DNA from: Rhodocyclaceae bacterium
GTDB lineage: Bacteria; Pseudomonadota; Gammaproteobacteria; Burkholderiales; Rhodocyclaceae
Direction: 5' to 3'
Length of the DNA stretch: 43,155 bases
Assembly: GCA_020445665.1 (NCBI GenBank)
Contig: JAGRGD010000010.1
Location: 1-43,155, forward strand
Numbering within the stretch: the stretch's first letter is position 1; every line of letters starts with the position of its first letter. The translations under genes were made by a program, and so were the position numbers. Positions 2,878-26,624 of this stretch are shown piece by piece. The notes under the pieces are model-generated. The model was not told where the DNA came from and made no database searches. It saw only the letters and a program-made list of their open reading frames with translations.

Positions 2878-3588
2878 ATGACACCCCTCGCCCGCCTCGC
2901 CCTGATCCTGCTCTCGAGCACCCTGCTCGGCGCCTGCGCCAGCCGTGTCCCCACCGTTGCCCACACCCATGTCGGCCACGCCCTGAGCGGCTGGGTGGAC
3001 ACGCCCGGCGAGCGCGGCCTGCTCGCGGTGGCCGAGAGCGAGGCGAGGATCGCCGTCCAGCACGCCGAGTTCGCCGTCGCCGGCGGGCGCGACGTGGCCG
3101 AGGTCCGGCTTCACCTGGGCCACGTCCTCAACACCCTCGACCCGGCCCGCGAGCCGGAAGGCCCCGGCCAGGGCTATGGCCTGATCCGGGCCCTCGAAGG
3201 GGCCAGCAAGCACGTGCAGTTCGCCGGCGAATCCACCGACGCCAGTGGCAATCTGCGCGCCGGCGCGCTCGTCTTCGCGCGCCTGGCGGCGCCGGTCCTC
3301 GACGAGGCCCGCCTGACGGCCACCCTCGCCGACACCGCACGCGCCACCTCCGACCCGGCCGAGACCCTGGTGTTCGCCGACGAGGTGCTGACCCGCAGTC
3401 GCCACATCCGCGACGGCCTGGCCGGCCTTCGCCGCCAGATCGAGGACACCACCGACCGCGAGGACCCTTCCTACCAGCCGGTCGAGCGCTGGTACCTGTT
3501 CAACCTGATTCGCCTGCCCTCGGGCGACTGGATCTTCCGAGACCGCAATGATTCATCGACTTCGCGCAACAGTGGCGGCTATCTCTAG
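2878..3588 (+). CDS. Predicted lipoprotein of unknown function
   Basis: ATG 2878 gives a classical lipoprotein signal: short N-region, hydrophobic stretch and lipobox LLGAC with Cys20 as the expected lipidation site. The mature part (about 216 residues) is mostly helical with no recognised domain; it contains a His-rich start (HTHVGH) and helices compatible with a bundle. It should sit on the periplasmic face of the inner or outer membrane. Its last 41 bases overlap the start of the exported caspase-like gene in another frame, which points to translational coupling and a shared job. I do not recognise the family, and homology beyond the lipobox cannot be judged from here. Confidence 0.75.
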   Translation: MTPLARLALILLSSTLLGACASRVPTVAHTHVGHALSGWVDTPGERGLLAVAESEARIAVQHAEFAVAGGRDVAEVRLHLGHVLNTLDPAREPEGPGQGYGLIRALEGASKHVQFAGESTDASGNLRAGALVFARLAAPVLDEARLTATLADTARATSDPAETLVFADEVLTRSRHIRDGLAGLRRQIEDTTDREDPSYQPVERWYLFNLIRLPSGDWIFRDRNDSSTSRNSGGYL

Positions 3589-5029
3589 CCTCCCCGCCCT
3601 CGCCCTCACGGCCCTCCTGCTGCTGGCGCCCGTGGGCGCCGCATGGGCCGACGACCGGGCCACCTGCATCGACGGGGACGATGCCGTCGCCGTGCCTGCC
3701 TGCCAGCGGGTGGTGCGCGCCGACCCGTCCGACTTCTCGGCCTTCATGGCGCTCGGCGACGCGCTGGTCCGCCTCGAGCGCCTTGCCGAGGCGAGCGAGG
3801 CCTACCACCAGGCCGTGTCCCTCGAGCCCGGCAACGAGCGCGCCGCCCAGAAGCTGCGCCTGGCCCGCTCCAACCTGAAGGAGGCAGATTTCCTGCGCCA
3901 GCAGAAGTCCGCGCCGGCCGCCGCCGAGGCAGGCCACGCGAGCGCGCTCGACCGCATCCGCTGCACCCGCATGAGCGGCGACGCGGCGCTGGCCGCCTGT
4001 GAGCGGGCGCTACGCGCCGCCCCTGGCGACAGCGAGCTGCTCGCAGCGCGGGCGCGCCTGGCGGGTGTCACTCAGGTCGCTTCGTTGCGCAACAAGGAGG
4101 CATCGGGCAGCGCGACGACACCCGCGCCGGACGCGCTCGCCGAGCGCCTGTCGGCCCTCAAGCGCCTGCGCGACGCCGACGTGATCACCGCCGAGGAATA
4201 CGCCAGCCGGCGGACCCAGGTGCTCAACGCCATCACCGGCCTGCCGCCGGTCGCACTAACCGAGCGCGCCGCGCCGGTGCCCACCCCGGCGCCAGCGGTC
4301 AAGTCCCGCTACGCCGGCATCGAGTTCGGCCGCTACCACGCCCTGGTGATCGGCATGGATGGCTACCGCCACCTGCCGGCGCTGGAGACCGCGGTCAACG
4401 ACGCCCGCGCCGTCGCCGACGTGCTGCGCGGCCAGTACGGTTTCGAGGTCAAGCTCCTCACCAACGCCTCGCGGGGCGACATCATCGAGGCGCTCGACAC
4501 CTACCGGGCGACCCTCGGCGAAGGGGACAACCTGCTGATCTACTACGCCGGCCACGGCTGGCTCGACGAGGACGCCCAGCAGGGCTTCTGGCTGCCGGTC
4601 GATGCCAAGCGCGACTCGCGGGTGAACTGGATCTCGAACGACAGCATCCGCGACGCGGCCCGGGCGATGAAGGCCAAGCACGTGCTGGTGGTCGCCGACT
4701 CGTGCTTCTCCGGCACCCTGACGCGCAGTGTGCGCATCCCCAACCGGACCGCCGACTACCTGCGCCGCATGGCCAGCAAGCGGGCCCGCCTGGCGCTCTC
4801 GTCAGGGGGCCTCGAGCCGGTCGCCGACGCCACCGACGAGGGGCGCCACTCGCCCTTCGCACGCAGCTTCATCGAGGCCCTGCGCACCAATGACAGCGTG
4901 ATCGACGGCACCGAGCTGTTCAGCCAGCTGCGCCACCCGGTGATGGTCAATGCCGACCAGACCCCGGAGTACGCGGACATCCGCCGCGCCGGGCACGATG
5001 GCGGCGACTTTCTTTTCGTGCGTCGCTGA
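3548..5029 (+). CDS. Exported caspase-like (peptidase C14) protein with TPR and SHOCT-like segments
   Basis: The 493-residue product starts with a signal peptide (cleavage likely after AWA near residue 34). It continues with TPR-like helices (about residues 45-110), a short motif resembling SHOCT domains (LKRLRDADVITAEEYASRR, near residues 205-225), and then a caspase/metacaspase fold from about residue 258 to the end. The catalytic dyad is visible: His336 in YYAGHGW and Cys386 in DSCFSG. C14 peptidases cleave after Arg/Lys or Asp; the specificity cannot be read here. Most bacterial caspase-like proteins are cytoplasmic, so the signal peptide suggests periplasmic proteolysis or scaffolding. 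The start overlaps the lipoprotein gene by 41 bases, and no other plausible start preserves the signal peptide. Confidence 0.88.
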   Translation: MIHRLRATVAAISSLPALALTALLLLAPVGAAWADDRATCIDGDDAVAVPACQRVVRADPSDFSAFMALGDALVRLERLAEASEAYHQAVSLEPGNERAAQKLRLARSNLKEADFLRQQKSAPAAAEAGHASALDRIRCTRMSGDAALAACERALRAAPGDSELLAARARLAGVTQVASLRNKEASGSATTPAPDALAERLSALKRLRDADVITAEEYASRRTQVLNAITGLPPVALTERAAPVPTPAPAVKSRYAGIEFGRYHALVIGMDGYRHLPALETAVNDARAVADVLRGQYGFEVKLLTNASRGDIIEALDTYRATLGEGDNLLIYYAGHGWLDEDAQQGFWLPVDAKRDSRVNWISNDSIRDAARAMKAKHVLVVADSCFSGTLTRSVRIPNRTADYLRRMASKRARLALSSGGLEPVADATDEGRHSPFARSFIEALRTNDSVIDGTELFSQLRHPVMVNADQTPEYADIRRAGHDGGDFLFVRR

Positions 5030-5050
5030 CGCCACGCGCGCGGCGACCGC

Positions 5051-5479
5051 TCAGCGCACGGACTTCACAAAGTAACGGGGCGCGTGGCGATAGCCCTGCG
5101 CCTCGTAGAAGGCGTGGGCGGCCGTGCGCAGCTCGGCACAATGAAGCTCGATCCGATCGCAGCCACGTTCCCGCGCCAGCGCCGTCGCCCGTGCTTCGAG
5201 CGCCTGGCCAATACCCCTGCCCCGGGCGCCTTCGGTGACGCACAGGTAGCTGATGCGGCAGAAGTCTCCGTCGAGCGCCAGCTGGGGGATGAAGTGGAGC
5301 GAGATCAGGCCCTCGACCCGGGCGCCGTCACAGGCGACCAGCAGCACCGCGTCAGGGTGCGCCAGCAGCTGGGTCACCCGCCGCGCGACGAAGGCGCCGC
5401 CGCCCGGGTAGCCGAGCTCGTCGAGCAGGCCGACGATGGCGGGGCCGTCGGTCGCCGTTGCCTCGCGGATCTGCGTCAT
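5051..5479 (-). CDS. GNAT-family N-acetyltransferase
   Basis: This 142-residue protein matches one GNAT domain: a beta-strand/helix start (IREATATDGPAI), a strand LLVACDGARVEGLISLHF, then motif A with the acetyl-CoA pyrophosphate loop ARGRGIGQAL (near residues 93-102) and a C-terminal AFYEAQGYRHAPRYFVK strand-helix typical of the family. It transfers an acetyl group from acetyl-CoA to an amine; the substrate is unknown. I chose ATG at 5479 because an upstream extension is the shadow of the divergent transporter gene. It converges with the caspase-like gene (21 bases between stops) and is divergent from the ZIP gene. Confidence 0.85.
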   Translation of the reverse strand: MTQIREATATDGPAIVGLLDELGYPGGGAFVARRVTQLLAHPDAVLLVACDGARVEGLISLHFIPQLALDGDFCRISYLCVTEGARGRGIGQALEARATALARERGCDRIELHCAELRTAAHAFYEAQGYRHAPRYFVKSVR

Positions 5480-5623
5480 GTTCCCCGCCCTCCCGTTCGT
5501 TGCGCCACTGCCCGCTCGCGGTGGCATGCCGTCACGATACACGGGGGCGCCCCCCCGCGACGCGCCGATCCCGCACAATGGTGACGCCAGCCGCCGCAAC
5601 GGCGCGCGGACACCGGAAGCACC

Positions 5624-6340
5624 ATGAACGAGATCCTCACCATCATCGTCCTCACCGCCCTGGCGGGCGCCTGCATCCCCCTCGGCGGCCTGCTGGCCAG
5701 CGTCGAGCGCTTCCGCCCGCACTGGCTCGAGCGGGAGTTCCGCCATTTCCTGATCGCCCTCGGCGGCGGCATCCTGCTGGGCGCCGTGGCGGTGGTGCTG
5801 GTGCCCGAGGGCAAGGCCCTGCTGGGCGGCTCGCTGTGGGCGATCCCCCTGTTCCTGGCCGGTGGGCTGGCCTTCTTCGCCATCGAGCGGATGCTCGGCC
5901 TGCGCCGCCGCGAGGCGCCCCAGCTGATGGGCATGATCCTCGACTTCGTGCCCGAGGCGATCGCCCTCGGTGGCATGATGGCCTCCGAATCACCCATCGC
6001 GCCACTGCTGGCCCTGCTGATCGGGCTGCAGAACCTGCCCGAGGGCTTCAACGCCTATCGGGAGTTGCGCGACCAGGGTCGGACTCGTCACGCGACCCTG
6101 ACGACGATGTCGGCGCTGGTCATGATCGGCCCGGCAGCGGGCCTCGCCGGTTACCTGTTCCTCAGCGATCACCCGGCCGCGCTCGGCGGCATCATGCTGT
6201 TTGCGTCGGGGGGCATCCTGTACCTGATCTTCCAGGACATCGCGCCCCAGTCCCGCCTCGCCCGCCACTGGGGGCCACCGCTGGGCGCGGTGCTCGGCTT
6301 CAGCCTGGCCCTCTTCAGCCGGATGCTGGCGGGCGGCTGA
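5624..6340 (+). CDS. ZIP-family metal transporter with altered metal-site residues
   Basis: The 238-residue protein has about eight hydrophobic helices and the two ZIP signature helices. In the first, the usual His-x-x-Pro-Glu-Gly pattern reads D107-F-V-P-E111-A; in the second, the usual His-Asn-x-Pro-Glu-Gly reads Q136-N-L-P-E140-G. ZIP proteins carry Zn, Fe or Mn into the cytoplasm through a binuclear site built by these residues, so replacement of both His by Asp and Gln implies different metal preference or altered transport. The cytoplasmic loop lacks the usual His-rich stretch. The gene's last 26 bases overlap the 3' end of the convergent EamA gene. Family membership is fairly sure; the substrate is not. 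Confidence 0.82.
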   Translation: MNEILTIIVLTALAGACIPLGGLLASVERFRPHWLEREFRHFLIALGGGILLGAVAVVLVPEGKALLGGSLWAIPLFLAGGLAFFAIERMLGLRRREAPQLMGMILDFVPEAIALGGMMASESPIAPLLALLIGLQNLPEGFNAYRELRDQGRTRHATLTTMSALVMIGPAAGLAGYLFLSDHPAALGGIMLFASGGILYLIFQDIAPQSRLARHWGPPLGAVLGFSLALFSRMLAGG

Positions 6341-7208
6341 AGAGGGCCCGCAGGCCGATCACGGCCAGTGCGGCGAGGATCAGCCCCATGCCCAGCAGTT
6401 CGGACAGGGGTGGCCGCTCGCCCAGCTCGATCGCCCCGGCCAGTACGCCGACGAGGGGAATCCCGAGCGAGCTGAGCCCGGCCGCGCCGGCTGGCAGCGA
6501 CCTGACCACGAACAGCCACAGGATCCACGCCAGGGCGGTGGCCGGCACCGCGTTGTACACGAGCGCGCCGACGAGATAGTCCGACCACTCGATGGGCCGG
6601 CTCGGCACCAGCCAAGCGATGACGCACAGGGCGATGGCGCCGAACAGCATCTGCCAGGCCGTCAGCAGCAGCAGGTCGGCCCCCTGCTGGATGCCGAGGC
6701 GACGCGCGACGATGGTGGCGACGGCCCAGCACAGCCCGGCCGCCAGAGCCAGCCCGCTGCCCTGCAGGCTCCCGCCGAACCCGGCCGGGCCCACCACCAG
6801 GGCCAGCCCGACCGCCGCCATCGCGATGGCGAGCCACTGCAGGCCGCGGATGCGTTCACCGAGCGTCAGCCACGCCAGCGGCAGCAGCCAGAACGGCATG
6901 GTGTAGACCAGCACCGCCGTGCGGCCGGCCGCACCGGAGACCAGCGCCATCTGGATCAGTGCCAGGAAGGCGGTGTTCTGCAGCAGGCCCATCAGGAGCA
7001 GACCGGGCACCCGCACGGGCCGCAACGGCCGGCGTAGCACGAGCAGGGTCGCGAACAGCGTCAGGGCGCCGAACAGCGCCCTCAGGGCCGAGAAATCGAG
7101 GGGGTCGGCGAAATCAACGACCCGCTTCATGACCACCCAGTTGTAGCCCCAGATCAGCCACAGCAGCAGCAGCGCCGCCACCGGCCCGGCGAAGGACGGA
7201 CGTGTCAC
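6315..7208 (-). CDS. EamA-family (DMT superfamily) transporter
   Basis: A GTG start at 7208 overlaps the stop of the upstream transglutaminase-like gene (GTGA, 4 bases). The frame can be read far upstream, but that part is a shadow. The 297-residue product has about ten hydrophobic helices in two similar halves, as in EamA/DMT carriers, with first-helix motif WLIWGYNWVVMK and the second half beginning near SGLALAAGLCWAVATI. Such proteins export amino acids or other metabolites or act as drug exporters; the substrate cannot be inferred. It is the last gene of the long - strand run, and its 3' end overlaps the convergent ZIP gene by 26 bases. Confidence 0.88.
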   Translation of the reverse strand: MTRPSFAGPVAALLLLWLIWGYNWVVMKRVVDFADPLDFSALRALFGALTLFATLLVLRRPLRPVRVPGLLLMGLLQNTAFLALIQMALVSGAAGRTAVLVYTMPFWLLPLAWLTLGERIRGLQWLAIAMAAVGLALVVGPAGFGGSLQGSGLALAAGLCWAVATIVARRLGIQQGADLLLLTAWQMLFGAIALCVIAWLVPSRPIEWSDYLVGALVYNAVPATALAWILWLFVVRSLPAGAAGLSSLGIPLVGVLAGAIELGERPPLSELLGMGLILAALAVIGLRALFSRPPASG

Positions 7209-8122
7209 TGAGCCGCTGGCGCGACCGGCGCGGGCGGCGGCAGCGGCTCCTCGACGCTGACCTCGACCACCACCTCCATGCCAAGATAGGCATCCGCCGG
7301 CCCGATGAAGCTGCCGGTCAGCGGCGCCGCCTGGGAGGGGTCGCGCGCGACGGCGACGCGGATCAGGTTGCGACCGCCCACGATCGCGTTGGTGGGGTCG
7401 AAGGCGAGCCAGCCGGCGCCCGGCAGGTAGACCTGGACCCAGGCGTGGGTCGCGCCGCCGCCCACCATCGCGTCCTGCGCGTCGAGCAGCGACTCGTCGT
7501 ACAGATAGCCGGAGACGAAGCGGGCCGCCAGGCCGAGGCTGCGCACCGCCTCCATCATCAGCAGCGCGAAGTCGCGGCAGCTTCCGCTGCCCAACTCGAG
7601 GGTCTGGACCGGCGGCTGGGTGCCCTCCTCGTCCCGTGCCTGGTACGCGAACTGCGCCTTGATGGCCCGCGTGATGGCCTCGATCACGACCAGCGTCTCG
7701 TCGCTGCCGGCCTCGGCGCACACCTCGCGCACCCAGGCGTCGACCCGGTGTTCCGGGTCCGCGTAGGCCCGCTCCACGCTGCGGGCCAGGTCGGGCATCT
7801 CGCTGGCGTCGTAGCTGAAGGGCAGGCGCAACGCGTAGGGTTCGATCAGGCTCATGTCGGGCTCGCCCGGGAAGTGCTCCGCGACGAAGGTGGATTCGAA
7901 CAGCAGTTCCTGGGCGTCGTTCTGGAAGCTGGCGACAAGGACCGAGTTGCCGAACACGTCGTGCACCCAGCGCACGTCGGCAGGCGGGTCGATCCGGATG
8001 CCGGTCTCGAACAGGCGCAGGTCGTGGCTGTCGCGGGGACGGCACATGAAGCGGTGCTCGCTGAAGCGGACCGGCTCCGCATAGTGGTAGAGGGTCCGGT
8101 GCAGGACCTTGAGTCGGGACAT
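7205..8122 (-). CDS. Transglutaminase-like cysteine peptidase-fold protein
   Basis: ATG 8122 (MSRLKVLHRTLYHY) gives the usual start of the bacterial transglutaminase-like N-terminal domain (about residues 1-85); longer forms up to 8194 lack that look. The core transglutaminase-like domain (about 145-250) has the triad Cys182 in GSGSCRDFA, His226 in THAWVQVYLP and Asp242 in FDPTN. The 305-residue length is normal for this group, which has no signal peptide and is probably cytoplasmic. Members hydrolyse or transfer amide bonds, but their substrates are mostly unknown. It overlaps the EamA gene by 4 bases, and 97 bases separate it from the symporter gene upstream. Confidence 0.9.
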   Translation of the reverse strand: MSRLKVLHRTLYHYAEPVRFSEHRFMCRPRDSHDLRLFETGIRIDPPADVRWVHDVFGNSVLVASFQNDAQELLFESTFVAEHFPGEPDMSLIEPYALRLPFSYDASEMPDLARSVERAYADPEHRVDAWVREVCAEAGSDETLVVIEAITRAIKAQFAYQARDEEGTQPPVQTLELGSGSCRDFALLMMEAVRSLGLAARFVSGYLYDESLLDAQDAMVGGGATHAWVQVYLPGAGWLAFDPTNAIVGGRNLIRVAVARDPSQAAPLTGSFIGPADAYLGMEVVVEVSVEEPLPPPAPVAPAAQ

Positions 8123-8219
8123 GGGGGCTCTCATCGGGTCGAGGTGTCGCAGCATGGACACGGAGGCGGCCATGATAGTGCCCTGCGCCGCCAAATGCCG
8201 TGACGCTCGGTGACCTCGA

Positions 8220-9068
8220 TCAGGCCGCGCGTAGCGGACCGGCGCGGCGGGCAGCGATGACGGCGAACGCAGAGAGGTTCATCAGCAGCGCGTAGATCAC
8301 GCTCGGCACCGCCAATTCGGGCCGCCCGAGCACGCTGATCGCCAGCGTGATCCCGAGGGCGCCGTTCTGCATGCCGCACTCCATCGCCAGCGCCACCCGG
8401 CCGGCGCCCTCCAGCCGCACCAGCGCGCCGAGGCCCGCACCGACCGCCATGGTCAGGGCATTGAGGAGCAGCGCAGCCGGCCCCACCGCCGGCAGGTGCG
8501 CCAGCATGGCGTCCCAGTGGCGGGCGAAGGTCGCCACCACGATCAGCGCAAAGACGACCGCGGCGGCTCGCTGGACACGCCGCACGCCGGCCGGTCCGAG
8601 CCGCCCGCTCGCGGCCACGGCCAGGCCGGCGGCGACCGGCAACAGCGTGACCAGCAGCAGCGCACCGGCGGTTGGCCCAAGGGGCAGGCGGATGCTCGCC
8701 CCGGTCGAGGCGAAAAAGGACAGGCCAGCGCCCACGACCAGCGGCACCGAGACGAAGGCCACCAGGCTGGTGAGCGCCGTCAGGCTGATCGACAGTGCCG
8801 TCTCGCCCCGTGCCAGATGGGTCACCATGCCGGCCGTCACGCCGCCCGGGCAGGCGGCGAGGATCATCAGGCCGGCTGCGGCCAGTGGGGGCAGGCCGAG
8901 GGCCACGGCCAGCGCCCAGGCGATGGCCGGCAGCAGGATCAGTTGCGCGACCAGGCCCGCGGCCAGCGCCCGCGGCCGGACCAGCACCCGGCGAAAATCG
9001 TCGAGCCGAAGGCCGAGCCCGAGCGAGAACATGATGAAGGCCAGGCCGACCGGCAGCAGCAGCGTCAC
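8220..9068 (-). CDS. Bile acid:sodium symporter (BASS)-family transporter
   Basis: The GTG start at 9068 overlaps the menA stop (GTGA). The 282-residue protein has nine to ten hydrophobic helices and BASS signatures: PVGLAFIMFSLGLGL in the first helix, LILAACPGGVTAGMVTHLARG with the crossover Pro-Gly-Gly, and MECGMQNGALGITLA in the second half, which correspond to the sodium-binding and crossover regions. BASS carriers import organic anions (bile acids, pantoate, pyruvate and others) with sodium. Coupling to menA is probably operonic; whether it moves a quinone precursor is only a guess. Confidence 0.88.
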   Translation of the reverse strand: MTLLLPVGLAFIMFSLGLGLRLDDFRRVLVRPRALAAGLVAQLILLPAIAWALAVALGLPPLAAAGLMILAACPGGVTAGMVTHLARGETALSISLTALTSLVAFVSVPLVVGAGLSFFASTGASIRLPLGPTAGALLLVTLLPVAAGLAVAASGRLGPAGVRRVQRAAAVVFALIVVATFARHWDAMLAHLPAVGPAALLLNALTMAVGAGLGALVRLEGAGRVALAMECGMQNGALGITLAISVLGRPELAVPSVIYALLMNLSAFAVIAARRAGPLRAA

Positions 9069-9997
9069 GCCAGCACCAGCCCGAGGCCCAGCGCCGCTCC
9101 AAGCAGCAGTTGCGCCCGCGCCGTGCGGGCCAGCTGCCCGTTCATCGCAGTGCCGGGCGGCATGCGCTGGAAGTCCCGCGCGAGGGCCACGCACTGCGGC
9201 GCGACGAGCAGCGAGGGGAGCAGCGCCGGCCAGTGAACACCGGCCGTGGGCACGATGGCCAGCAGCACGAAGGGCGCCAGCATCAGGAGCGCGTAGGCGC
9301 GCCGCGACCGCGCCAGCCCGAGCACGGCCGCCAGGGTGCGGCGCCCGGCGAGCCGGTCCGCTTCGAGGTCGCGCACGTTGTTCACCAGCAGCACGGCCGC
9401 CGCCGGCGTACCCAGCAACAACCCGAGCAGGGGTGCGGCCACCAGCCAGGCGCCGCTGTGCAGGAAGTGGCTGCCCGCCACCGCGACGAGGCCGAAGAAG
9501 AGCATCACGAACACCTCGCCCCAAGCACTGTGGGACAGGGGCCGCGGACCGCCCGAATAGGCCCATCCGGCTGCCAGCGACGCCAACCCGATGGCGAGGA
9601 TGGGCCAGCCGGCATGGATGACGAGGAAGACGCCGCCCACCAGCGCGAGGCCGAAGCACAGGGCGGCGGCGCGGCGCACCTGTCCCGCCGTGGCGAGCCC
9701 GGCGGCGGTGACCCGCAACGGGCCGAGGCGGGTCGGGCCGTCGTTGCCGCGCAGGAAGTCGCCGGCGTCATTGAACAGGTTGGTGCCGGCCTGGATGGCC
9801 AGTGCGCAGGCCAGCGCGACGAGGAAGGCGAGCCCGTCGAAGGCCGCACCCTGGTGCACCGCCAGCGCGCTGCCCACCCCCACCGGCACGGCGGCCAGGC
9901 TCAGGGTGCGCGGACGGATCGCCAGCCACCACAGGGCCAGCCCGCCCGGCGGGCGGTGGGACGCGTCGGCGAGGCGGCTGCCGCTGCGGCCGCTCAC
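9065..9997 (-). CDS. menA: 1,4-dihydroxy-2-naphthoate prenyltransferase (UbiA superfamily)
   Basis: The GTG start at 9997 overlaps the ubiE stop (GTGA). The 310-residue membrane enzyme has both prenyl-diphosphate-binding motifs: N73-L-F-N76-D77-x-x-D80 followed by G-N-D86, and N206-N207-V-R-D210-x-x-x-D214 ending GRRTL. The second motif with NNxRDxxxDxxxGRRTL is characteristic of MenA rather than UbiA of ubiquinone synthesis. It would attach a polyprenyl tail to 1,4-dihydroxy-2-naphthoate to give demethylmenaquinone, the substrate of the methyltransferase just upstream. No other menaquinone gene is in the window, so supply of the naphthoate is not shown. Confidence 0.87.
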   Translation of the reverse strand: MSGRSGSRLADASHRPPGGLALWWLAIRPRTLSLAAVPVGVGSALAVHQGAAFDGLAFLVALACALAIQAGTNLFNDAGDFLRGNDGPTRLGPLRVTAAGLATAGQVRRAAALCFGLALVGGVFLVIHAGWPILAIGLASLAAGWAYSGGPRPLSHSAWGEVFVMLFFGLVAVAGSHFLHSGAWLVAAPLLGLLLGTPAAAVLLVNNVRDLEADRLAGRRTLAAVLGLARSRRAYALLMLAPFVLLAIVPTAGVHWPALLPSLLVAPQCVALARDFQRMPPGTAMNGQLARTARAQLLLGAALGLGLVLA

Positions 9998-10734
9998 GCC
10001 GGCGCTCCGGGACGCCGTGCGCGGTGAATGCAGGCGATGCCGAAGGAGAGGTCGCACCAGCCGACCTCGTCGAAGCCGGCGGCCGTGAGCATCGCGGCGA
10101 ACTCCGCCTGGTCCGGGAAACGGCGGATCGACTCGACCAGGTACTGGTAGGCGGCCGGCTCGCGCGCCACCCAGCGGCCGAGGCGCGGGATCACGTGGAA
10201 GGAGTACGGGTCGTAGAACGGCCGCAGCCAGGCAGCCGGGCGCGAGAACTCGAGGCAGGCGAAGCAGCCGCCAGGCTTGAGCACCCGCCGGATCTCGGTC
10301 AGCGCATCGGCCAGCCGGGTGACGTTGCGCAGGCCGAAGGAGACCGTCAGGGTGCCGACCGAGCGATCTCGCAAGGGCAGCCGCTCCCCCTCGGCGGCCA
10401 GCCAGCGAATGCACCGATCCGAGGCCGGCCGGCCGGCGCGCATCATCGGCTCGGACGGGTCGATGACGAGGACCGCGCCTGCGCCCGCGGCGGCCAGCAG
10501 CCTTGCCACGTCACCGGTGCCGCCGGCCAGGTCCACGACCGGATCGGCGAGAGGCAGGTTGCGCACGAGCCGCCGCTTCCAGAGCCGATGGATGCCGAAG
10601 CTCATCAGGTCGTTCATCAGGTCGTAGCGGGGTGCGACGGCGCGGAAGACGTCCCGGATGCGGCGCTGTCGCTCACGCGGCTCGACCCGGTCGAAGCCGA
10701 AGGAGCGGTCGAGACCATGCCGATCGTCCCGCAT
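9994..10734 (-). CDS. ubiE: Demethylmenaquinone/ubiquinone C-methyltransferase (UbiE/MenG)
   Basis: The 246-residue SAM-dependent methyltransferase shows the UbiE family marks: RYDLMNDLMSFGIHRLWKR (residues 36-54), SAM motif I VVDLAGGTGDVA (66-77), SFGLRNVT (132-139), RVLKPGG (150-156) and YQYLVESIRRFPDQ (196-209). It methylates demethylmenaquinone to menaquinone, and in many bacteria also works in ubiquinone synthesis. Here the adjacent menA favours the menaquinone role, so menG would be an equally good name. Its ATG shares one base with the SCO stop (TGATG), and its stop overlaps menA. Confidence 0.9.
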   Translation of the reverse strand: MRDDRHGLDRSFGFDRVEPRERQRRIRDVFRAVAPRYDLMNDLMSFGIHRLWKRRLVRNLPLADPVVDLAGGTGDVARLLAAAGAGAVLVIDPSEPMMRAGRPASDRCIRWLAAEGERLPLRDRSVGTLTVSFGLRNVTRLADALTEIRRVLKPGGCFACLEFSRPAAWLRPFYDPYSFHVIPRLGRWVAREPAAYQYLVESIRRFPDQAEFAAMLTAAGFDEVGWCDLSFGIACIHRARRPGAPA

Positions 10735-11324
10735 CAGCGATAGCGCGCAGCGTCGAAGTAGGCCTTGAGGCGACGCACGATCACCGGCACCGGCGTGCCG
10801 TAGGCGAACTTCGTCAGGTACTCGCCGGCCGGGCCCAGCAGGAACATCCCGGCGCTATGGTCCACCGAGTACTCCGCCTCGGCGGCACCCGGCTCCCGGA
10901 CCACCTCGAAGCGCACCCGGTAGTTCTCGGCCACCCGCGCCACCAGCGCCGGCGCACCGGTCAGGCCAACGATGCGGGCATCGAAGAAGGCGGTGTAGCG
11001 ACCGACCACTTCCGGCGTGTCGCGGGCCGGATCCACGGTGATGAAGATCGGCTGGAGCCCGGCGGCGCCGTCTCCGAGGGCCTCGAGCACCTGGGCCATC
11101 TCGGCGAGCGTGGTCGGGCACACGTCCGGGCAGAAGGTGTAGCCGAAGGTGATCAGCTGGAAGCGGCCGGCAAAGGTGGTCTCGTCGATGCTGTGGCCCT
11201 GGCTGTCCATGAGCAGGAAGCGGGGGTTGCGCGGGCGGCCGTCGTCATACTCGGCATGGGCCGTCGAGAGCCCCACCAGAGCCACCGCGATGACCATCAG
11301 GCAGGCCAGCCAGCGGGCGCTCAC
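10734..11324 (-). CDS. SCO1/SenC-family copper chaperone/thiol protein
   Basis: The GTG start at 11324 overlaps the stop of the preceding small gene (GTGA). The 196-residue product has an N-terminal signal or anchor (residues 5-24, ending AHA) and a thioredoxin-like fold with the SCO copper site: C65-P-D-V-C69 in GYTFCPDVCPTT and His156 in YSVDHSAGMF. SCO proteins deliver copper to, or reduce the thiols of, CuA-type sites in cytochrome oxidases and some nitrous oxide or nitric oxide reductases, on the outer face of the inner membrane. Lying beside nosD and a cytochrome c, it probably serves a copper respiratory enzyme encoded elsewhere. Confidence 0.92.
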   Translation of the reverse strand: MSARWLACLMVIAVALVGLSTAHAEYDDGRPRNPRFLLMDSQGHSIDETTFAGRFQLITFGYTFCPDVCPTTLAEMAQVLEALGDGAAGLQPIFITVDPARDTPEVVGRYTAFFDARIVGLTGAPALVARVAENYRVRFEVVREPGAAEAEYSVDHSAGMFLLGPAGEYLTKFAYGTPVPVIVRRLKAYFDAARYR

Positions 11325-11659
11325 GAGGCCCCCAGCAGGGCGCGCAGGCGCGCCTCGAGGCGATCCACGTCTGCGGCGACGGTGGCCGCGTCGGGGCAGG
11401 TGGCACCGCCCTGGTGCTGGGCCAGGAAGCCGTCGTTGGTGGCCTGTTCGAAGCGCTCGCCCCAGGCCCGGGTCCTGGGCGCCAGCGCGATCACCAGGCG
11501 CTTGATGCGTCCGGCGTTGTCGCTCTGACGACACGCCAGCGCGGTCCCGTTGGCGACGCCCAGTTCGCCGAGGGCGGCGAGACCGGCCTCGCGCGGGTCG
11601 CTCTGGGCCTGGGCCGGCAGCCAGGCCAGCGCCAGGATGATGCACAGGATGGCTCTCAT
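11321..11659 (-). CDS. Small exported two-cysteine protein of unknown function
   Basis: This 112-residue protein has a signal peptide (about residues 1-18, cleavage near AQA) and a small helical mature part. Two cysteines remain, Cys43 (ALACRQ) and Cys88 (GATCPD); there is no CxxCH heme motif. The two cysteines could form a disulfide or hold a metal, but this is a guess. Start and stop overlap both neighbours (ATGA with the cytochrome c stop, GTGA with SCO), so it is translated as part of the same unit. I do not recognise the family. Its fixed place between a cytochrome c and a copper chaperone suggests a role in periplasmic redox or metal handling. Confidence 0.78.
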   Translation of the reverse strand: MRAILCIILALAWLPAQAQSDPREAGLAALGELGVANGTALACRQSDNAGRIKRLVIALAPRTRAWGERFEQATNDGFLAQHQGGATCPDAATVAADVDRLEARLRALLGAS

Positions 11660-12327
11660 CGGGATTCCTCCAGGTACTGCAGTTCGGTCAGGTGGGCGAG
11701 GAGGTTCTGCAGATCGGCCTCGGCGAGCCCGTCGAGTGCACCCTGGCCGAGGATCTCCACGTCGTGAAGGCGGTCGCCGGCCCGGAAGTGGGCCATCTGG
11801 CGCTCGAGGTAGGCGGTGTATTGCCCCACCAGCATCGGGATCGAGCCGCGACCGCGGCCGGTGTCGCCGTGGCAGCTGGCGCAGAGGGCGTCATAGGTGG
11901 CCTTGCCGGCAGCGCGGTCGCCCTCGACCCGCGGGATGATCATGACCTTCTCCATCGCCTGCAGGCGGGCCAGCGCATCATCCGCCTCGGTGAACTCGGG
12001 TGGCCGGGTGGGCAGCTCGATCGCCGCCAGGTAGGCGGCAATGTCGCGGATGTCCTCGTCCGGCAGCTCCCGCGCCTGGGTGTAGGGGTACATCGGAATG
12101 TTGATCCGCTCGCGGGCCCGGAAGGCCTTCAGGGTGGCGGCGATATAGCGAGCCGAGAGGCCGGCCAGTCGCGGGTACTCGCCCTGCTTGCCGCCCTGCC
12201 CGAACTGGCCGTGGCAGCCGGCGCAGGTGCCGTTGATCTCCTCGCCGTTGTCCAGGTCCGGCTGGGCAGCGACGGCAAGGGAGGACATCGAGCACGACAA
12301 CAGGAATGACAGCAGCAAACGACGCAT
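11656..12327 (-). CDS. Exported diheme cytochrome c (c4/c553-like)
   Basis: I prefer ATG 12327, preceded by GGGGG, over an in-frame TTG at 12342. The 223-residue product has a signal peptide (about 1-20) and two class I cytochrome c halves, each with a heme motif: C35-A-G-C38-H39 and C149-A-S-C152-H153. Candidate axial Met ligands are near residues 79 and 165 (IPMY and IPMLVG). Diheme c4-like cytochromes shuttle electrons in the periplasm between a quinol dehydrogenase and terminal reductases or oxidases. It starts 77 bases after the nosD stop and overlaps the next small gene, tying it to the nosD-SCO-menaquinone cluster. Confidence 0.93.
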   Translation of the reverse strand: MRRLLLSFLLSCSMSSLAVAAQPDLDNGEEINGTCAGCHGQFGQGGKQGEYPRLAGLSARYIAATLKAFRARERINIPMYPYTQARELPDEDIRDIAAYLAAIELPTRPPEFTEADDALARLQAMEKVMIIPRVEGDRAAGKATYDALCASCHGDTGRGRGSIPMLVGQYTAYLERQMAHFRAGDRLHDVEILGQGALDGLAEADLQNLLAHLTELQYLEESR

Positions 12328-12404
12328 GAGACCCCCGATCAAATTGCGGCCGATTATCCGGATCGACCGCGGCCCTGAACTTGACGCAGGACAAGGGCCG
12401 CGAA

Positions 12405-13673
12405 TCAGGGACGGCGCTCGACCTCGAACATCCGCGGTGCGTCGTCGCGCAGGACCCGCGACGGGTACGCGAAGGGAGCAAGCCGTTCCAGGAAATCGAC
12501 CAGTTCCATGAACGGGGAATTGCGGAAGAAGCGTGTCTCCGGTGCCTGCATCCAGATCCGGTCGGCGTAGGCGAGCAGCTCGTAGGGACGGTCGCCGGTG
12601 CCGTCCTGGTCCAGGTCGAAGCCCTGGTAGTCATCCCACAGGTTGCCGTGCCAGCTCTCCAGATCCGGATTGCCGCCGGCGGTTGCCGTCACCTGCCAGA
12701 TGTTGTGCTCGAAGCGGTTGTTCATCACGATCCGCCCGCCCCGCTCGCCATACAGGTTCAGTCCGACGATGTTGTGGGCCACCCGGTTGCGGTGGATGAA
12801 GATCTGGCTGATCGGGTTCGACGGCGAGTCGGCCATGATGCCGGTGGCACAATGGACGATCTCGTTGTCCTCGACCAGCGCCGCGGTGGTCTCCTTCAGG
12901 GCGATGCAGGCCCCGGCCGCGCTCATCGTGTGGAGCACCCGGTTGCGGCGGATCAGGAAGCCGCTGGAGTTGATAACGACGATGCCGGCGTCGTTGCCCT
13001 CGAAATGGTTTCCCTCGACCCGGCTGCGATGCGAGAAGAGAAAGTTCATCGCCCGGCGGCTGTCGCGGATCTGGTTGCCGGTGAACAGGTTGTACGGCGA
13101 ATTGCTGATCGTCAGGTCCCGCACGTGGGCGATGTCGTTGCCCTCGATGCGGTTGTGGGCGGCGTTCCACAGGCGGATGCCGTCGCCCCGGTCTGCCGTG
13201 TCCGCACCGCGGGAGCGGATCCGGTTGTCACGCAGCAGGTTGCGCTCGCCGTTATGCACCACGATGCCGAACAGCACGTCGTCAAGGTCGTTGCCCTCGA
13301 TCACGTTACCGCTGCCCTCGACGACGATGCCGGCGTCGATCCGGTCGTGGGAGTCGCCGCTGGCGCGGATGCGCAGGCCCCGCACCGTGGCGCCGTTGGC
13401 CTCGACCCGCAGGACACTGCCGTTGCGATCACCCACCAGTTCGGCCGCCCCGCCCCCATCGACCACCAGCGGCATGCGCAGCGTGGCCGGCCCGGCGTAC
13501 TGCCCGGGGGCGAGACGCACCACGCCGCTCGGCGGTGGATCGTCCAGCAACGGCTGCAGCGGCACCGGCGCGGCAGCCAGGGCGAGCCAGGGCAGCAGGC
13601 AGCCGGCCAGGGCGACACAGCACCCCGACCGGCGCAGAAGAGACTTCGACACGATCGCTCCGCAGATGGCCAC
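12405..13673 (-). CDS. nosD: NosD-like periplasmic copper-site maturation protein
   Basis: The 422-residue protein has a signal peptide (about residues 14-34) and a long right-handed beta-helix made of repeating N-x-I/V-x-x-N turns (for example GNVIEGNDLDDV, RNLLRDNRI, HNRIEGNDIAHV). It then carries the NosD C-terminal region with NIWQVTATAG, NLWDDYQGFDLDQDGTGD and the end PFAYPSRVLRDDAP. NosD works with the NosFY ABC transporter to build the copper-sulfur centre of nitrous oxide reductase in the periplasm. nosF, nosY and nosZ are not in the window, so this copy may serve NosZ encoded elsewhere or another enzyme. It begins the cluster that continues with cytochrome c, SCO, ubiE and menA. Confidence 0.85.
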   Translation of the reverse strand: MAICGAIVSKSLLRRSGCCVALAGCLLPWLALAAAPVPLQPLLDDPPPSGVVRLAPGQYAGPATLRMPLVVDGGGAAELVGDRNGSVLRVEANGATVRGLRIRASGDSHDRIDAGIVVEGSGNVIEGNDLDDVLFGIVVHNGERNLLRDNRIRSRGADTADRGDGIRLWNAAHNRIEGNDIAHVRDLTISNSPYNLFTGNQIRDSRRAMNFLFSHRSRVEGNHFEGNDAGIVVINSSGFLIRRNRVLHTMSAAGACIALKETTAALVEDNEIVHCATGIMADSPSNPISQIFIHRNRVAHNIVGLNLYGERGGRIVMNNRFEHNIWQVTATAGGNPDLESWHGNLWDDYQGFDLDQDGTGDRPYELLAYADRIWMQAPETRFFRNSPFMELVDFLERLAPFAYPSRVLRDDAPRMFEVERRP

Positions 13674-13741
13674 GGGGCGACTCTAGGCCGCGGGACACCC
13701 CGCGACCACGACCGAAGTCAATTTTCCGCGATCGACCGCGT

Positions 13742-14077
13742 TCAGCTCACGCCGAGCAGCTCGACCTCGAAGACCAGCGTCGCGTTGGGCGGGATCACGC
13801 CACCGGCGCCGCGCGCGCCGTAGCCCAGCTCGGGCGGGATCGTGATCTTGCGGGTACCGCCGACCTTCATGCCCTGCACGCCCTGGTCCCAGCCCTTGAT
13901 CACGTGGCCCGCGCCGAGGGGAAACGAGAACGGCTGGTTGCGGTCCTTGCTCGAGTCGAACTTGGTACCGTCTGTCAGCCAGCCGGTGTAATGGACCGAG
14001 ACGCTCTTGCCGCTCTCGGCGGTGTCGCCACTGCCTGCCACGACGTCTTCGATGATCAGGCCGTTGGAATCACTCAC
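13742..14077 (-). CDS. FKBP-type peptidyl-prolyl cis-trans isomerase
   Basis: I chose GTG 14077 because AGGAG stands at a proper distance before it and a 111-residue single FKBP domain results; the longer frame upstream (to 14221) is not protein-like. Family motifs are present: [37 protein letters not shown], and [29 protein letters not shown], with the usual pocket residues Tyr, Asp, Phe, Val, Trp and Tyr. It speeds proline isomerisation in protein folding and has no signal peptide, so it should be cytoplasmic. The stop is 68 bases before the nosD start on the same strand, so read-through into nosD is possible. Confidence 0.92.
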
Positions 14078-14222
14078 GGATCGAATCTCCTGTTGGGGTT
14101 GTCCGCGCGACGGGCGCCGCACGCCCCGGGCTCGGATGCGCCCGGAGCCCCATTGTAGGCCACCGGGCCGTCGCGGCCGCGTGGACTGCCACCCCGCACC
14201 CAGGGTGGGCGACGGCGGCACT

Positions 14223-14774
14223 TCAGCCGGCGACGAGATGGGTGAATCGGGTCTGCAGCAGGGTCAGCTTCGGCGCCACGACAAGCTGGCAGTACGGTTC
14301 GGAAGCGTGATTCAGGTAGTAGTCGCGATCGGCGTCATCCGCCGGCCAGAAGCGGCTCGCCGGCTCGACCTCGGTCACCACCGGGTCGGCGTGTTGGCCG
14401 CTGGCGTCGATGGCCTCGATGGCCTCGCGGACCCACAGCTCCTGATCGTCGGAGACGGCGAAGACGACCGAGCGGTACTGGCACCCCACATCCTGCCCCT
14501 GCCGGTCGCGGGTGGTCGGGTCGTGGATGGCGAAGAAGACCGCCAGCAGGTCCGCGTAGGCGACCTCGCCCGGGTCGTAGTCGATGCGGACCACCTCGGC
14601 GTGCCCGCTGTTGCCGCCGCACACCATCGCATGATCGGGCGCCGACAGGTGGCCGCCCGCATAGCCGCAGGTCACGGCCCGCACGCCGCGGACCCGCTGG
14701 AAAACGGCCTCGAGGCCCCAGAAGCAGCCGCCCCCGAAAATCGCCGTATCAATCTGTATGGTCTGGTCCGCCAT
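14223..14774 (-). CDS. msrA: Peptide methionine (S)-S-oxide reductase MsrA
   Basis: This 183-residue cytoplasmic enzyme repairs oxidised methionine. The catalytic motif GGGCFWGLE has Cys17, and further conserved stretches are [26 protein letters not shown] and GCQYRS. Possible resolving cysteines lie downstream (for example the Cys in SEPYCQLVV near the C-terminus). No MsrB is fused or adjacent. It follows tamB on the same strand after a 92-base gap. Confidence 0.95.
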
Positions 14775-14866
14775 GCCGCTCTCCTGCCCCGCGTCGCAGT
14801 CACACCCTCCGCCGCCGCGTGAACTGCCTTGCCCTTTTCACCTTAACGGCATGTCATAGGCAAGAT

Positions 14867-17800
14867 TCAGCGGAACGTGAAGGTGTAGAACATGTCGATG
14901 GCGTTGTCGGTCCCGCCGCGGGCCACCACCGACAACCGCTTGCCGAGCTGGTGGGTCAGCTTGACGATGCTCTCCGCCCCGGCGAGGCTCTGCTCGAAGG
15001 CGAGGAAGGTGTCGGTTGACAGCCGCTTGCCGAGCGTCACGACCTGACCGGAGACGCTGCCCGCGTTGCTGCGCACGCCGGTGTCCACCACCGAGCTGGT
15101 CGCCCCACGGCTGGCCCCGTTGAGGTCGCCCTGACCGATGCTGAGCTGGTCGAGGCCGAGGGAGTTGGAGAGCTGGCCGGTGATGCCCCCACCCGGCCCG
15201 CCGAGCAGCGCCTGGGCGGCCGGAATCAGCAGGCCGAGGTCCGCGCTGCTGCTGGTGTCGGGCGGCCGCCCGAGGATGATCCAGGCGAGCTTCTCCGAAT
15301 CCGGCACGCTGGGCGAGGACACCAGCTGCACCCGCGGCCGGCGCGCCGTGCCGGTAATCGAAACCCCGGCTTCGACCTCGAGGCCCTTGCGCAGGGCCGT
15401 GATGTTGAGCGACGGGTTGCCCGGCGGACCGGCAAAGTTGACGGTGCTGTTCTCCACCGCCAGCTTCTGGCCATAGCCCTCGAAGAGCCCGTCCTCGAGA
15501 CGGATCACGCCGCTCGCCGCCGGGTCGATGCCGGGTCGCACATAGACGTCGATGCCGCCGGTGAGGCGCGTATCGAGGCCCATCGCGGTCAGGTAGAACG
15601 CCTTGCCGAGGCGGATCGCGATGTCGGCATTGACCTTGAAGGTGCCTTCCTCTCTCTCCTCGCCGAGGATCACCACGTCGTCCGACAGGCTGGGCGGGAG
15701 GGCCTCGCTGATCGTGATCGCGCCCGCATCGGCCTCGAGCCGCGCCTTGACGTCCACAAAGTCCCAGCCACTCACGCCGTGCCCTTCCCCGCTCACCGCC
15801 AGCCAGCGATCTTCCCGCTGCAGGAGCGGCAGGCGGTCGGCGAAGTAACCGAAGACACCGGCGCCGGTCGCGAGGTCAATGCTGCCCGAAGCGTGCAGTC
15901 GGCCGGGCTCGGCCATCAGCTTGCTCACATCGATGCGCGACTCGGTCGGCCGGACCCGGTTGGGCGACACGAATTCGAGGCGGACAACGCGCAGGTAGTC
16001 GTGGTCGAAGCTGGCCTCGAGGGTTCCGCCCGACAGCCGCAGTCCCACGTCGGTGAGCGCCAGGGACAGGTCGTGCCCCTTCAACTGCCCGAGGGCGAGC
16101 GGCGTTTCCGGCGAACCGGAGAGGGAGAAATCCGCCTCGAGACGCCCTCCCGTCAGCATGTTGGCGTCCACCAGCGGGCCCAGCCATTTGATGGTGGGCA
16201 TGTCCAGATGGGCGGAGCCCAGCAGGGGTGCGCCGGGCACCAGGCGCACGCCGCTGTCGGTGCGCTCGACCGAGGTCGTGAGCGTGCCGGCGACCGTGCC
16301 GAGCTGGCTGCCCGCACCGCTGAACGACACGGCCACCTCGCCCGCGTCAGCGTTGAAGATCGCCTCCAGTTCGGTCAGGCCGAGTCGGGCCGTGGCATCG
16401 CCGAGCAGGACCAGGTCGCCGCTTTCGCGGCGGATCCGGGCTGTCCCGCTGATCTCGTCGGCGACACTGACATCCCATTCGCCGCCGAGGCGCAGCTGCC
16501 CCTCGATCGGCTGCACGCCCCCTTCCGGCGGGGGCGCCAGGGCCACCTTCAGGCCGCTCATGCTGCCCTCGAGCTGGAGCCCCTCCGGCGCCCACTCGGT
16601 GCGCTGCAAGCGGATGCTACCGCCCCCCCCGCTGCTGAGCCGGGCTTCACCGAGGCGCGCCTGTGTCGCGCCAAGCGCCAGCGAGGCCGGCGATTCCAGC
16701 TTGAGCGCGACGCGCCCGTCGGTTTCGAGCGCCTGCAGGCTGCCGGTCCAGACCTGGTCCTCGCCGAGGGCACCGGCGAGTTCGGCGTCAAGCGAATCCC
16801 CCTCGCCGGCCACCAGCGACACCGTCGCCTGATGGCTGCCCCGGGTCCCGTCCACCGAAACGGCCGCGCGCTTGAGCAGGATCGCCCGGTCAGCGCCGAA
16901 GACCTCACCGACGCCGGCCACCAGCACCACGCGCCCGTCGAGCCCGCCCTCGAGCCGACCCTGGAGATTGACGCCGGCGACGCGGATGCCGCCAGGCAGG
17001 CGCAAGTCCGTCCCGGTGGCCAGGACCTCTCCGGCCGGCACGTCGGGGGTGCCGCTCAGGGTCGCCTGGACCTCGGCCCGACCACTGAGCTCCGGCTGGA
17101 CGATATCGAGCTGATCGGCCTCGAGGGACAGGGCGAGCCGATCGCCCTCCCGCCCCCAGCTACCGTCCGCCTGCAGGCGGTTGTCGGCCAGGGAGAGCCA
17201 CAGGTGGGCATCGGCGACGTAGGTCTGACCGGCCACCAGCTCGCCTTCACCCCCCAGGGCATGCCCCATCAGGGTGCTGTCGGGCGCCAGCCGGTAGCGC
17301 ACTGCGGCCTGCGGCGCCGGCGCCAGGTTGCCGCTGGCCTGCAGCGTCGCGTTGAGGTAACCCTGGGGCGCGTCGGCATACAGGCGGGCCGGGTCCAGGG
17401 CCGCCAGGACCAGATCAGCCGAGAACGCCTGATCGCCCTTGAGATCCACCCGCGCCTTGCCGGACACCGTTGCCTCGCCCTGGCGCAGGCGCAGTTCGGC
17501 GACATCGATCACCTGGTTCTCGTGGCGGGCGCGGGCGTCCAGCGACAGCCCCTCGCCCGCGATGCGGGCATCGAGGGTCTGCCGCACGCCATCGCCCTTG
17601 CCCGCCACGCGTCCCGCCAGCGCAGCCTCGGGCAGGCGCGCATCGAGCGCCTGCAGGCGCACGCCGGCGAGATCGAGCGCCAGCTCGAACAGCCCGACGG
17701 GATCGTCCGCCACCGGCTGCCATGTCGCGCGGCCGTTCACCTTCCCGCCGGCCGGCAGTGACAGGGCCAGTTCCTCGGCCTCGAGCTGGCGCTGAGCCCA

Positions 17801-25700: not shown

Positions 25701-25925
25701 ATGCCCGGCGCGAGCATCAATCGATCCGCCCGCTCGGTCACCTACACGCTGACCGACGGGGGCCTCGGCGACAGCACGGCGGTGGACGGCCAGATCGTCG
25801 ACCCGGTCGGGCTGGCCCTTTTCCCGGCGACGGACATCCCCGCTTCCGGCTGGCCGATGGTCGCGATGATGATCCTCGGCGTGCTCGCCCTCGGGACCAT
25901 GCGCCTGCGCAACCGACCGACCTGA
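22797..25925 (+). CDS. Large surface protein with six beta-repeats, choice-of-anchor-U-like region and IPTL-CTERM-like tail
   Basis: The 1042-residue protein begins with a signal peptide (cleavage near AVA, residue 32). It then shows six repeats of about 120-140 residues, each opening with a motif like SFSPSSAAPGERVTMTYTF (DNA starts near 22896, 23259, 23656, 24055, 24472 and 24889) and often containing CGAGSSL and SCTF/NCSF cysteine pairs, as in DUF11-like adhesin repeats. A calcium-type spacer (DPDGDGLTTAVEQAAGDANG) leads to a domain with YPDGIASFTLPC, LRKYGP and SVTYTLTDGGLGD, matching the choice-of-anchor-U pattern. The last 30 residues are I-P-A-S-G-W, a hydrophobic helix and an Arg cluster, like IPTL-CTERM sorting signals. 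It is likely a surface-anchored adhesin. Confidence 0.83.
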   Translation: MRILEHIAHAGARTGLPWLAAAALLAPGGAVATTVNQSFLPTTIGPGAATQLTYTITANTGAITGAGLSNTLPAGTTVAVARPADSTCGGQLSAAPGASVVTWSDGRLALGESCRIVVFVTSATAGSHTNASFDLNASDGASAFPSRTLTVDAARPGLQRSFSPSSAAPGERVTMTYTFDNSLNASNESPNSFSDVLPTGTRVASPANLATDCPPISPGFPAVLEAEPGGDAVSASQVRVDAGTTCAVTVDIVPSTPGILNFVSALARSGFDDIGHAAGQLAVTASTVSLVQSLPDGTASPGQSVPLRFRLVNASRSADATDVGFSVDLDAALSGLVATGLPLSNICGTGSTLSGSGTVSLSGATLTPASPVCEFEVHVAVPAGATTNQYTIASSTITGDLNAAPFTSPAAATLLEVVPVPQLSQSFGSAVIGAGQNLTITYTLTNTSATASLTDFTLADTYGSDTVVLVTLPPAGSCGAGSSFTVYFPPSNLDPSGLLASGLNLPPGESCTFPVVIAIPIGTGSGRFASVVETAEGTVDAVTVGASVTNDVAQVVSPPALALALADPIVAAGGTTTLRVDLANDSQGQLDADEYPDFSAIGFSLDLNAALAGLGASGLPAGDACGAGSSLSGGGALVLSGGSLAAGQNCSFTVSLDVPPGAASGLYTLTSTQPQAQAFGASATGAAAQAVLQVGGLARSMAFGTTPVAPGDSVTLTYTLRNESQTESATSIGYLHDLSTLGSGYVFDVALPTTPCGAGSSLTLSSANRRLTLANGSLAAGATCSFAVTVQIPGGTALGDLPTTTGSVSTLFNATPLVLPAFQTALRVEDPAQPRDLTPSNLDEPDPDGDGLTTAVEQAAGDANGDGIPDAIQPTVAGLVSPVTGRPVALSVAGGCSAITSFSVAPFHSLSAPDGQGVYPDGIASFTLPCSTATVTLTYPGSNFLPGLVLRKYGPQAPDFAGGDRWYSMPGASINRSARSVTYTLTDGGLGDSTAVDGQIVDPVGLALFPATDIPASGWPMVAMMILGVLALGTMRLRNRPT

Positions 25926-26401: not shown

Positions 26402-26624
26402 GGTGATGTGCAATTGAACCTCGCAAGGCCGACAGTTAGCCACGCCCGGATCATGCCGGGGGGAAGGGATTGCAAATTTTGATCGAACACGGCGGCAGGA
26501 CGGGTCGCCCCGGTTCGCGCCGCACCTCGATCGTGCATGCCGGAATCTACGCCTCCTGCGGCAGGCGCGGGATGTAAAATGACATATGTGCGGTCCGCAT
26601 CGCGCCGCGCGAGGAGCCGCCACC
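26402..26624. promoter_or_regulatory. Divergent promoter region between BLUF and Crp/Fnr genes
   Basis: This 223-base AT-richer stretch (for example TTGCAAATTTTGATCG near 26470-26485, and TGTAAAATGACATATG near 26572-26587) must drive both genes. The second string resembles a -10 region for the + strand gene. I see no full Fnr-type palindrome. Confidence 0.45.

Follow-up and report, generated by a model that had tools for sequence, protein, structure and literature searches.

Gene content of the locus

The element examined here is a run of seven minus-strand genes in a 43,155-nucleotide stretch of DNA (the window), which is contig C325 (JAGRGD010000010.1, assembly GCA_020445665.1) of a Rhodocyclaceae bacterium whose whole genome comprises 4.79 Mb in 341 contigs (93.65% complete). 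The run joins a second NosD-type protein (NosD2) and a SCO-type copper chaperone with UbiE, MenA and a BASS-family transporter (Table 1). As far as gene content can tell, comparison with relatives shows that these genes are linked to nos (nitrous oxide reductase) genes, that the known genes for making the menaquinone ring are absent, and that the BASS gene and the men genes occur as an either-or.

The first-pass annotation, made from this sequence alone, had described six of the genes (nosD, diheme cytochrome c, small Cys protein, SCO, ubiE and menA). All six are present and their families were confirmed, but the cluster does not end at menA, because the BASS gene overlaps menA by 4 bases. The successive junctions from the cytochrome c gene through those of the small protein, SCO and UbiE to menA overlap by 4, 4, 1 and 4 bases, and a 77-base gap separates the end of nosD2 from the cytochrome c gene. 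NosD2 passes the curated NosD model, and MenA and UbiE pass the curated models for menaquinone finishing. Homologs of NosZ, NosF, NosY and NosG were not detected by tblastn (E ≤1e-5) in positions 5001-16000, in agreement with the annotated lack of nosZ, nosF and nosY beside the block; the rest of the window was covered by a partial family scan.

Table 1. Features of the gene run in the window, in order of transcription.
Feature	Position	Strand	Basis or remark
nosD2, second NosD-type beta-helix maturation protein	12405..13673	-	TIGR04247 317.8 bits (cut-off 300)
FNR/DNR-like box TTGTCCTGCGTCAA, between nosD2 and cytochrome c	12381..12394	-	sole TTGWCNNNNRTCAA match in the window
Cytochrome c, exported, two CxxCH motifs	11656..12327	-	PF00034 65.4 bits, two stretches
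112-residue exported protein, invariant Cys 43 and 88	11321..11659	-	no family; adjoins SCO
SCO1/SenC-type copper chaperone	10734..11324	-	PF02630 155.9 bits
UbiE/MenG-type quinone methyltransferase, second genomic copy	9994..10734	-	TIGR01934 244.3 bits (cut-off 158.35)
MenA, 1,4-dihydroxy-2-naphthoate (DHNA) prenyltransferase	9065..9997	-	TIGR00751 153.9 bits (cut-off 102.15)
BASS-family transporter, seventh gene of the run	8223..9068	-	PF01758 100.1 bits (cut-off 24.3)

The block probably belongs with clade II nos clusters

Genomes, genera, contigs and loci are given below by our handles (G, g, C and L). The only other NosD (PF05048) match in the genome lies on contig C111, which also carries NosZ of the Sec type (TIGR04246, 912.9 bits against a cut-off of 625); the genome therefore does contain nosZ, one of the checks suggested by the first-pass annotation. 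The C111 NosD scored 359 bits to TIGR04247, a NapH-like protein 227.2 bits to TIGR02163 (cut-off 213.05) and NosL 27.8 bits to PF05573 (cut-off 24), while a NapG-like protein stayed below its cut-off. NCBIfam places NosF among the generic ABC ATPases. Appearance and position were the basis for naming NosY (without NCBIfam match at E 1e-15), a TlpA-like gene and two cytochromes. NosZ and the block thus lie on different contigs and are not linked in this genome. The NosD that is linked to NosZ is the one on C111, and NosD2 is a putative maturation protein.

To place the block, 249 genomes of the window's family were surveyed. MenA was counted at E ≤1e-60, which gave 69 genomes; 19 of the 88 matching genomes had a weaker match (E ≤1e-20) and were excluded, and G584, with two adjacent fragments, was included. 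The thresholds were fixed after the match lists had been seen. NosD (E ≤1e-60) occurred in 88 genomes, with at least two matches in 64 of them. MenA and NosD were found together in 56 genomes, MenA only in 13, NosD only in 32 and neither in 148 (Fisher's exact test, 1.3e-20, which ignores kinship).

The MenA neighbourhoods comprised 68 genes and that of the window, in stretches of up to 20 kb, many of them ended by contig ends. UbiE lies directly 3' of the nos TlpA-like gene in 12 loci (-4 to +18 bases), and MenA directly follows UbiE in 30. The genes for UbiE, MenA, SCO, the small protein, the second NosD and the cytochrome c all recur within or next to the clade II nos clusters that relatives carry. 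In genus g346, five genomes have a window-like run from cytochrome c through the small protein, SCO, UbiE and MenA to BASS, with NosD missing. The entire block was found in JAGRFX010000068.1 (Rhodocyclaceae bacterium isolate HKST-UBA161; L041, contig C662 of G562), where the seven proteins are 75-87% identical to those of the window and NosD2 86-87%. This was the only named record with the whole block in the record scan; the five other NosD records had no SCO, small-protein or MenA homologs in the stretch covered, and L042 had one 29% UbiE-like match.

Because relatives have ubiE directly after the last nos genes, the window block is best read, on gene order, as a displaced nos accessory block that sits apart from nosZ in this genus. 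The first-pass annotation had regarded a linked nos set that includes a nosD of its own, together with a lack of conservation in relatives, as grounds for abandoning its proposal. Such a set exists on C111, yet the block is conserved. Its statement that NosD is only known together with NosF/NosY fails in these genomes, since NosD occurs in L042, L043 and L046 without neighbouring nos genes, apart from generic ABC ATPase likeness. Orphan copies of the NosD2 type also recur as the second NosD in many genomes of the family. An order-wide search found NosD in 7 of 100 genomes. A class-wide search (E 1e-60; 21 of 274 genomes) gave 28 loci outside the window's own genome, whose 1.5-kb flanks contained neither SCO nor UbiE, MenA or the small protein.

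The single TTGWCNNNNRTCAA site of the window compares with 0.04 expected, and at least one site appeared in 3 of 100 shuffles. Its counterpart in L041 reads TTGTCCTGCATCAA. The C111 stretch has two TTGWCNNNNRTCAA sites, 100 bases before the nosZ open reading frame (ORF) and 50 bases before a cytochrome ORF. These sites weakly suggest that the block and the C111 nos genes may share FNR/DNR-type control, weakly because the pattern was picked after the window site had been seen. The window also encodes a CRP/FNR-type regulator (26586-27359, plus strand; PF13545, PF00027), whose N-terminal CRNCPLR we take to resemble the N-terminal Cys of FNR.

The 112-residue protein had no Pfam or NCBIfam match and no PDB match at E 1. 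It was found at 14 loci, with SCO alongside in all 14. Cys43 and Cys88 are invariant in 13 of 13 aligned proteins (G456, with Ns, was omitted), and the alignment also shows the motifs LG--NG-ALAC and P[KR]T. A partner of SCO in copper-site assembly is the likeliest role predicted for it, and its place beside SCO makes it a conserved, testable candidate. A single unbroken ORF in G598 (L130:19076-19999, plus strand) is a natural fusion of this type of protein with SCO.

The BASS gene takes the place of men genes

The first-pass annotation held that the block supplies menaquinol. The finishing enzymes support this, but own synthesis of the menaquinone ring is not supported. In the window's genome MenB gave no match at E 1e-60, MqnA/D none at E 0.001, and the MenD matches fell far under the cut-off (82 vs 244 bits). 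The suggested check for a full menaquinone or futalosine route hence came out negative for MenB, MenD and MqnA/D, with MenC, MenE and MenF not searched genome-wide. A different UbiE on C177 is stronger than the window copy in the own-genome search (285.9 vs 215.1 bits), and two UbiA-family genes besides MenA lie on C2 and C101. These three genes can, by family, serve ubiquinone.

MenD (TIGR00173) and MenB (TIGR01929) were each over the cut-off in 40 of the 249 genomes. MenB matches under the cut-off were excluded, and 32 of the 72 matching genomes have only such matches. Among the 69 MenA genomes, 40 have MenD or MenB over the cut-off and 29, including the window's, have neither. The BASS ortholog was found in 21 of these 29 genomes, in 0 of the 40 and in no genome outside the 29. 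In the 56 genomes with both NosD and MenA, men genes occur in 37, BASS in 18, both in 0 and neither in 1. The futalosine marker PF02621 was detected in 15 of 249 genomes at E 0.001, 3 over the cut-off and these 3 MenA-negative; BASS occurs in 0 of the 15.

The exchange is also visible in gene order. Of the 69 regions, 19 have BASS next to menA, with a spacing of -4 to +23 bases in 17. MenB directly follows MenA, in the position that BASS takes at the other loci, in seven nos loci that are men-positive (G293, G398, G448, G469, G482, G527, G614); MenC lies downstream in 7/7 and MenE, MenF and MenD in 6/7 of the fetched stretches. In G293, MenD and MenF are over their cut-offs, and MenC and MenE below. 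Genera g223, g317, g348 and g352 each include genomes of both states. In G607 of g348, BASS lies 39 bases 3' of the nos TlpA-like gene and menA on a different contig; the BASS ortholog is present in 0 of 6 MenD-positive genomes of this genus. The MenA match beside BASS is partial in G576, and in G471 a piece of menA followed by BASS stands at a contig end. NosD gave no match at 1e-60 in three of the 21 BASS genomes (G424, G471, G500). Mapped on a quick MenA tree of 67 rows, the BASS label changes 6 times, at least 4 of them forced by strong branches, versus 18.2 in shuffles.

The 21 BASS orthologs belong to 13 genera and are 49-100% identical (E ≤1.2e-47). Proteins of G611, G384, G470 and G416 (35-40% identity, E 6.6e-46 to 6.6e-43), none of which belongs to the MenA set or the men set, were left out. 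The window protein scores below the NCBIfam cut-offs for TIGR00841 and PanS. In phmmer searches against solved BASS chains it matched at E 2.9e-24 to 1e-20 for the bacterial chains. The ExGxQN motif is found in 19 of the 21 orthologs and reads ECGMQN in the window protein.

Side by side with these results, a second UbiA-type prenyltransferase (30-33% identical to MenA) lies directly 3' of the nos TlpA-like gene at eight loci (L228:13037-13990, L120, L131, L132, L229, L230, L231, L244); none of the eight genomes has MenD over the cut-off. The L228 protein scored 114 bits to NF004751 (cut-off 264), and the window's own genome has a copy at C252:25278-26000.

Proposed function and alternatives

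MenA uses DHNA as its substrate, and the product of MenB is the CoA form of DHNA; DHNA was therefore chosen as the candidate cargo of the BASS protein. We consider it reasonably probable that the block is an accessory of clade II nos, in which BASS takes in DHNA or a closely related compound, and MenA and UbiE finish menaquinone for nitrous oxide (N2O) respiration. NosD2, SCO, the 112-residue protein and the cytochrome c would build or feed a periplasmic copper enzyme, judging from their families and conserved linkage. BASS would take up the naphthoate, its substrate and direction being predictions, MenA would add a prenyl tail to the imported ring, and UbiE would methylate the ring. The finished naphthoquinone would pass to a NosG/NosH-type quinol-oxidising module, this NosZ presumably drawing on menaquinol. 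In a paper on Bacillus, NosGH of Wolinella is described as a membrane-bound quinone-oxidising module like NapGH, in which NapH oxidises menaquinol (PMC3475470). The wider claim, that BASS in the nos operon or displaced block is a dedicated DHNA importer replacing menB-C-E-F-D in many lineages and making N2O respiration dependent on a precursor from neighbours, has in our judgement about an even chance. The transporter, overlooked at first pass, shifts the reading from supply of menaquinol to finishing of an imported precursor.

Several observations weigh against the import of DHNA for N2O respiration. In all 21 BASS orthologs a conserved stretch departs from the aligned solved structures: CPGG-[VA]-[ST]-[AS]-[GA] replaces the SGTASN of the solved chain, so that a cation site may be altered. 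Fisher's exact test for BASS versus men genes within the 69 MenA genomes (1.6e-11) ignores kinship, and an independent-pairs sign test had only 2-3 informative pairs, each of which agrees with the expected direction, and did not reach significance. The BASS ortholog is also missing from eight of the 29 MenA genomes that have no men genes. Seven of these have no NosD either (G399, G411, G457, G466, G495, G540, G557), but G531 (89% complete, ~540 contigs) has NosD, with 4 kb behind menA free of BASS. One ORF separates menA and BASS in G598, and the BASS genomes G566 and G587 have MenB-like proteins 24-31 bits under the cut-off. Finally, 32 of the 88 NosD-positive genomes have no MenA, so menaquinone is not required by every nos cluster in the family. 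MenA is retained, with NosD, men genes and the BASS ortholog all missing, at L155, L200, L156, L193 and L201 (G399, G411, G457, G466 and G495, respectively), G411 and G495 being single-contig genomes.

An alternative that we regard as unlikely is that BASS genomes make DHNA, or another aromatic acid accepted by MenA, by an undescribed route, and that the BASS cargo is unrelated (a keto acid or pantoate). The MenB-like proteins of G566 and G587 and the second UbiA-type prenyltransferase in nos operons of genomes without MenD would fit such a route, as would the variety of molecules carried by BASS proteins, one solved member of which binds pantoate (PMC10645422). However, sub-cut-off MenB-like matches are also found in 30 further genomes, all outside the MenA set, and the BASS ortholog occurs solely in MenA-positive genomes that have no men genes (21 of 249), which speaks against this alternative.

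It is quite improbable that the block serves another copper enzyme, such as a CuA-type NO reductase, and that nos proximity in relatives is incidental. The separate contigs of block and nosZ, the solitary NosD2 in several genomes and a COX1-like protein on C52 would suit this idea, but the genes for UbiE and MenA overlap with the nos run in relatives, and MenA keeps company with NosD more often than either occurs singly (56 vs 13 and 32 genomes). The first-pass annotation had proposed a module for a copper-containing respiratory enzyme encoded elsewhere, NosZ or a CuA-type NO reductase, that also supplies menaquinol. The NosZ and menaquinone parts are supported by the same genes in or beside relatives' clade II nos clusters; the NO reductase part is not, as no CuA-type enzyme linked to the block was found in the genome, searched through PF00115 alone. 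The PF00115 match on C140 is CcoN, and four more partial COX1 matches exist besides C140 and C52. The C52 protein (C52:36270-37403; L010:835-2739, minus strand) scored 52.5 bits to PF00115, has no NCBIfam match at E 1e-10, and is possibly an unusual oxidase or NO reductase. Thiocyanate dehydrogenase, an early candidate for the copper enzyme served, was made unnecessary by the nos linkage and was not searched for in the genome.

That UbiE, MenA and BASS are relics, or that BASS exports a quinone intermediate, is very improbable: seven MenA genomes that lack NosD, men genes and the BASS ortholog would agree with it, but BASS is well conserved across genera and mostly packed tightly after menA, and an exporter is disfavoured because it would be expected in men-positive producers, where BASS was found in 0 of 40.

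Other features of the window

Elsewhere in the window, positions 3548-5029 (plus strand) encode a caspase-domain protein with TPR repeats and positions 22797-25925 (plus strand) a long protein with six DUF7933 stretches.

Relation to known systems

Clade II N2O reducers are regarded as an important biological sink of N2O. Should these bacteria obtain their quinone from neighbouring cells, the removal of N2O would hinge on which members of the community release DHNA, and the trait would escape tests in defined medium. A BASS subfamily would gain a substrate and the DHNA importer a name; none is named in the accessible parts of the papers on DHNA users (PMC9704088, PMC10746273). Among the matches listed for open-licence PubMed Central titles and abstract openings, none dealt with a DHNA importer or with the presence of BASS or UbiE/MenA in nos clusters.

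The closest parallel for the finishing pair is Porphyromonas pasteri, which carries menA and ubiE alone and can grow on DHNA (PMC9704088). As in this auxotroph, MenA and UbiE are kept and the known ring-making genes were not found in the window's genome. In contrast, the window pair stands in linkage with nos genes and with a dedicated transporter gene, and its host has separate UbiE and UbiA-family genes; the available part of the P. pasteri account names no transporter. For Lactiplantibacillus plantarum, quinone uptake pathways are called yet to be identified (PMC10746273). The men operons resemble the men-positive nos loci, where MenB-MenC-MenE-MenF-MenD follow UbiE-MenA, whereas the window, like the rest of the BASS genomes, yielded no men genes and has BASS in their place. 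The transporter shares the PF01758 domain and the ExGxQN motif with the BASS family (bacterial sodium/bile acid symporters, PanS), but differs by its CPGG stretch instead of SGTASN, its link to menA and its scores under the TIGR00841 and PanS cut-offs. The clade II (Sec-dependent) nos cluster with NosGH carries the block genes in relatives, behind nosF, nosY and the TlpA-like gene. The window block differs in that it lies on a separate contig and includes a second NosD but none of nosZ, nosF, nosY and nosG, and it adds quinone-tailoring genes and a transporter to that cluster.

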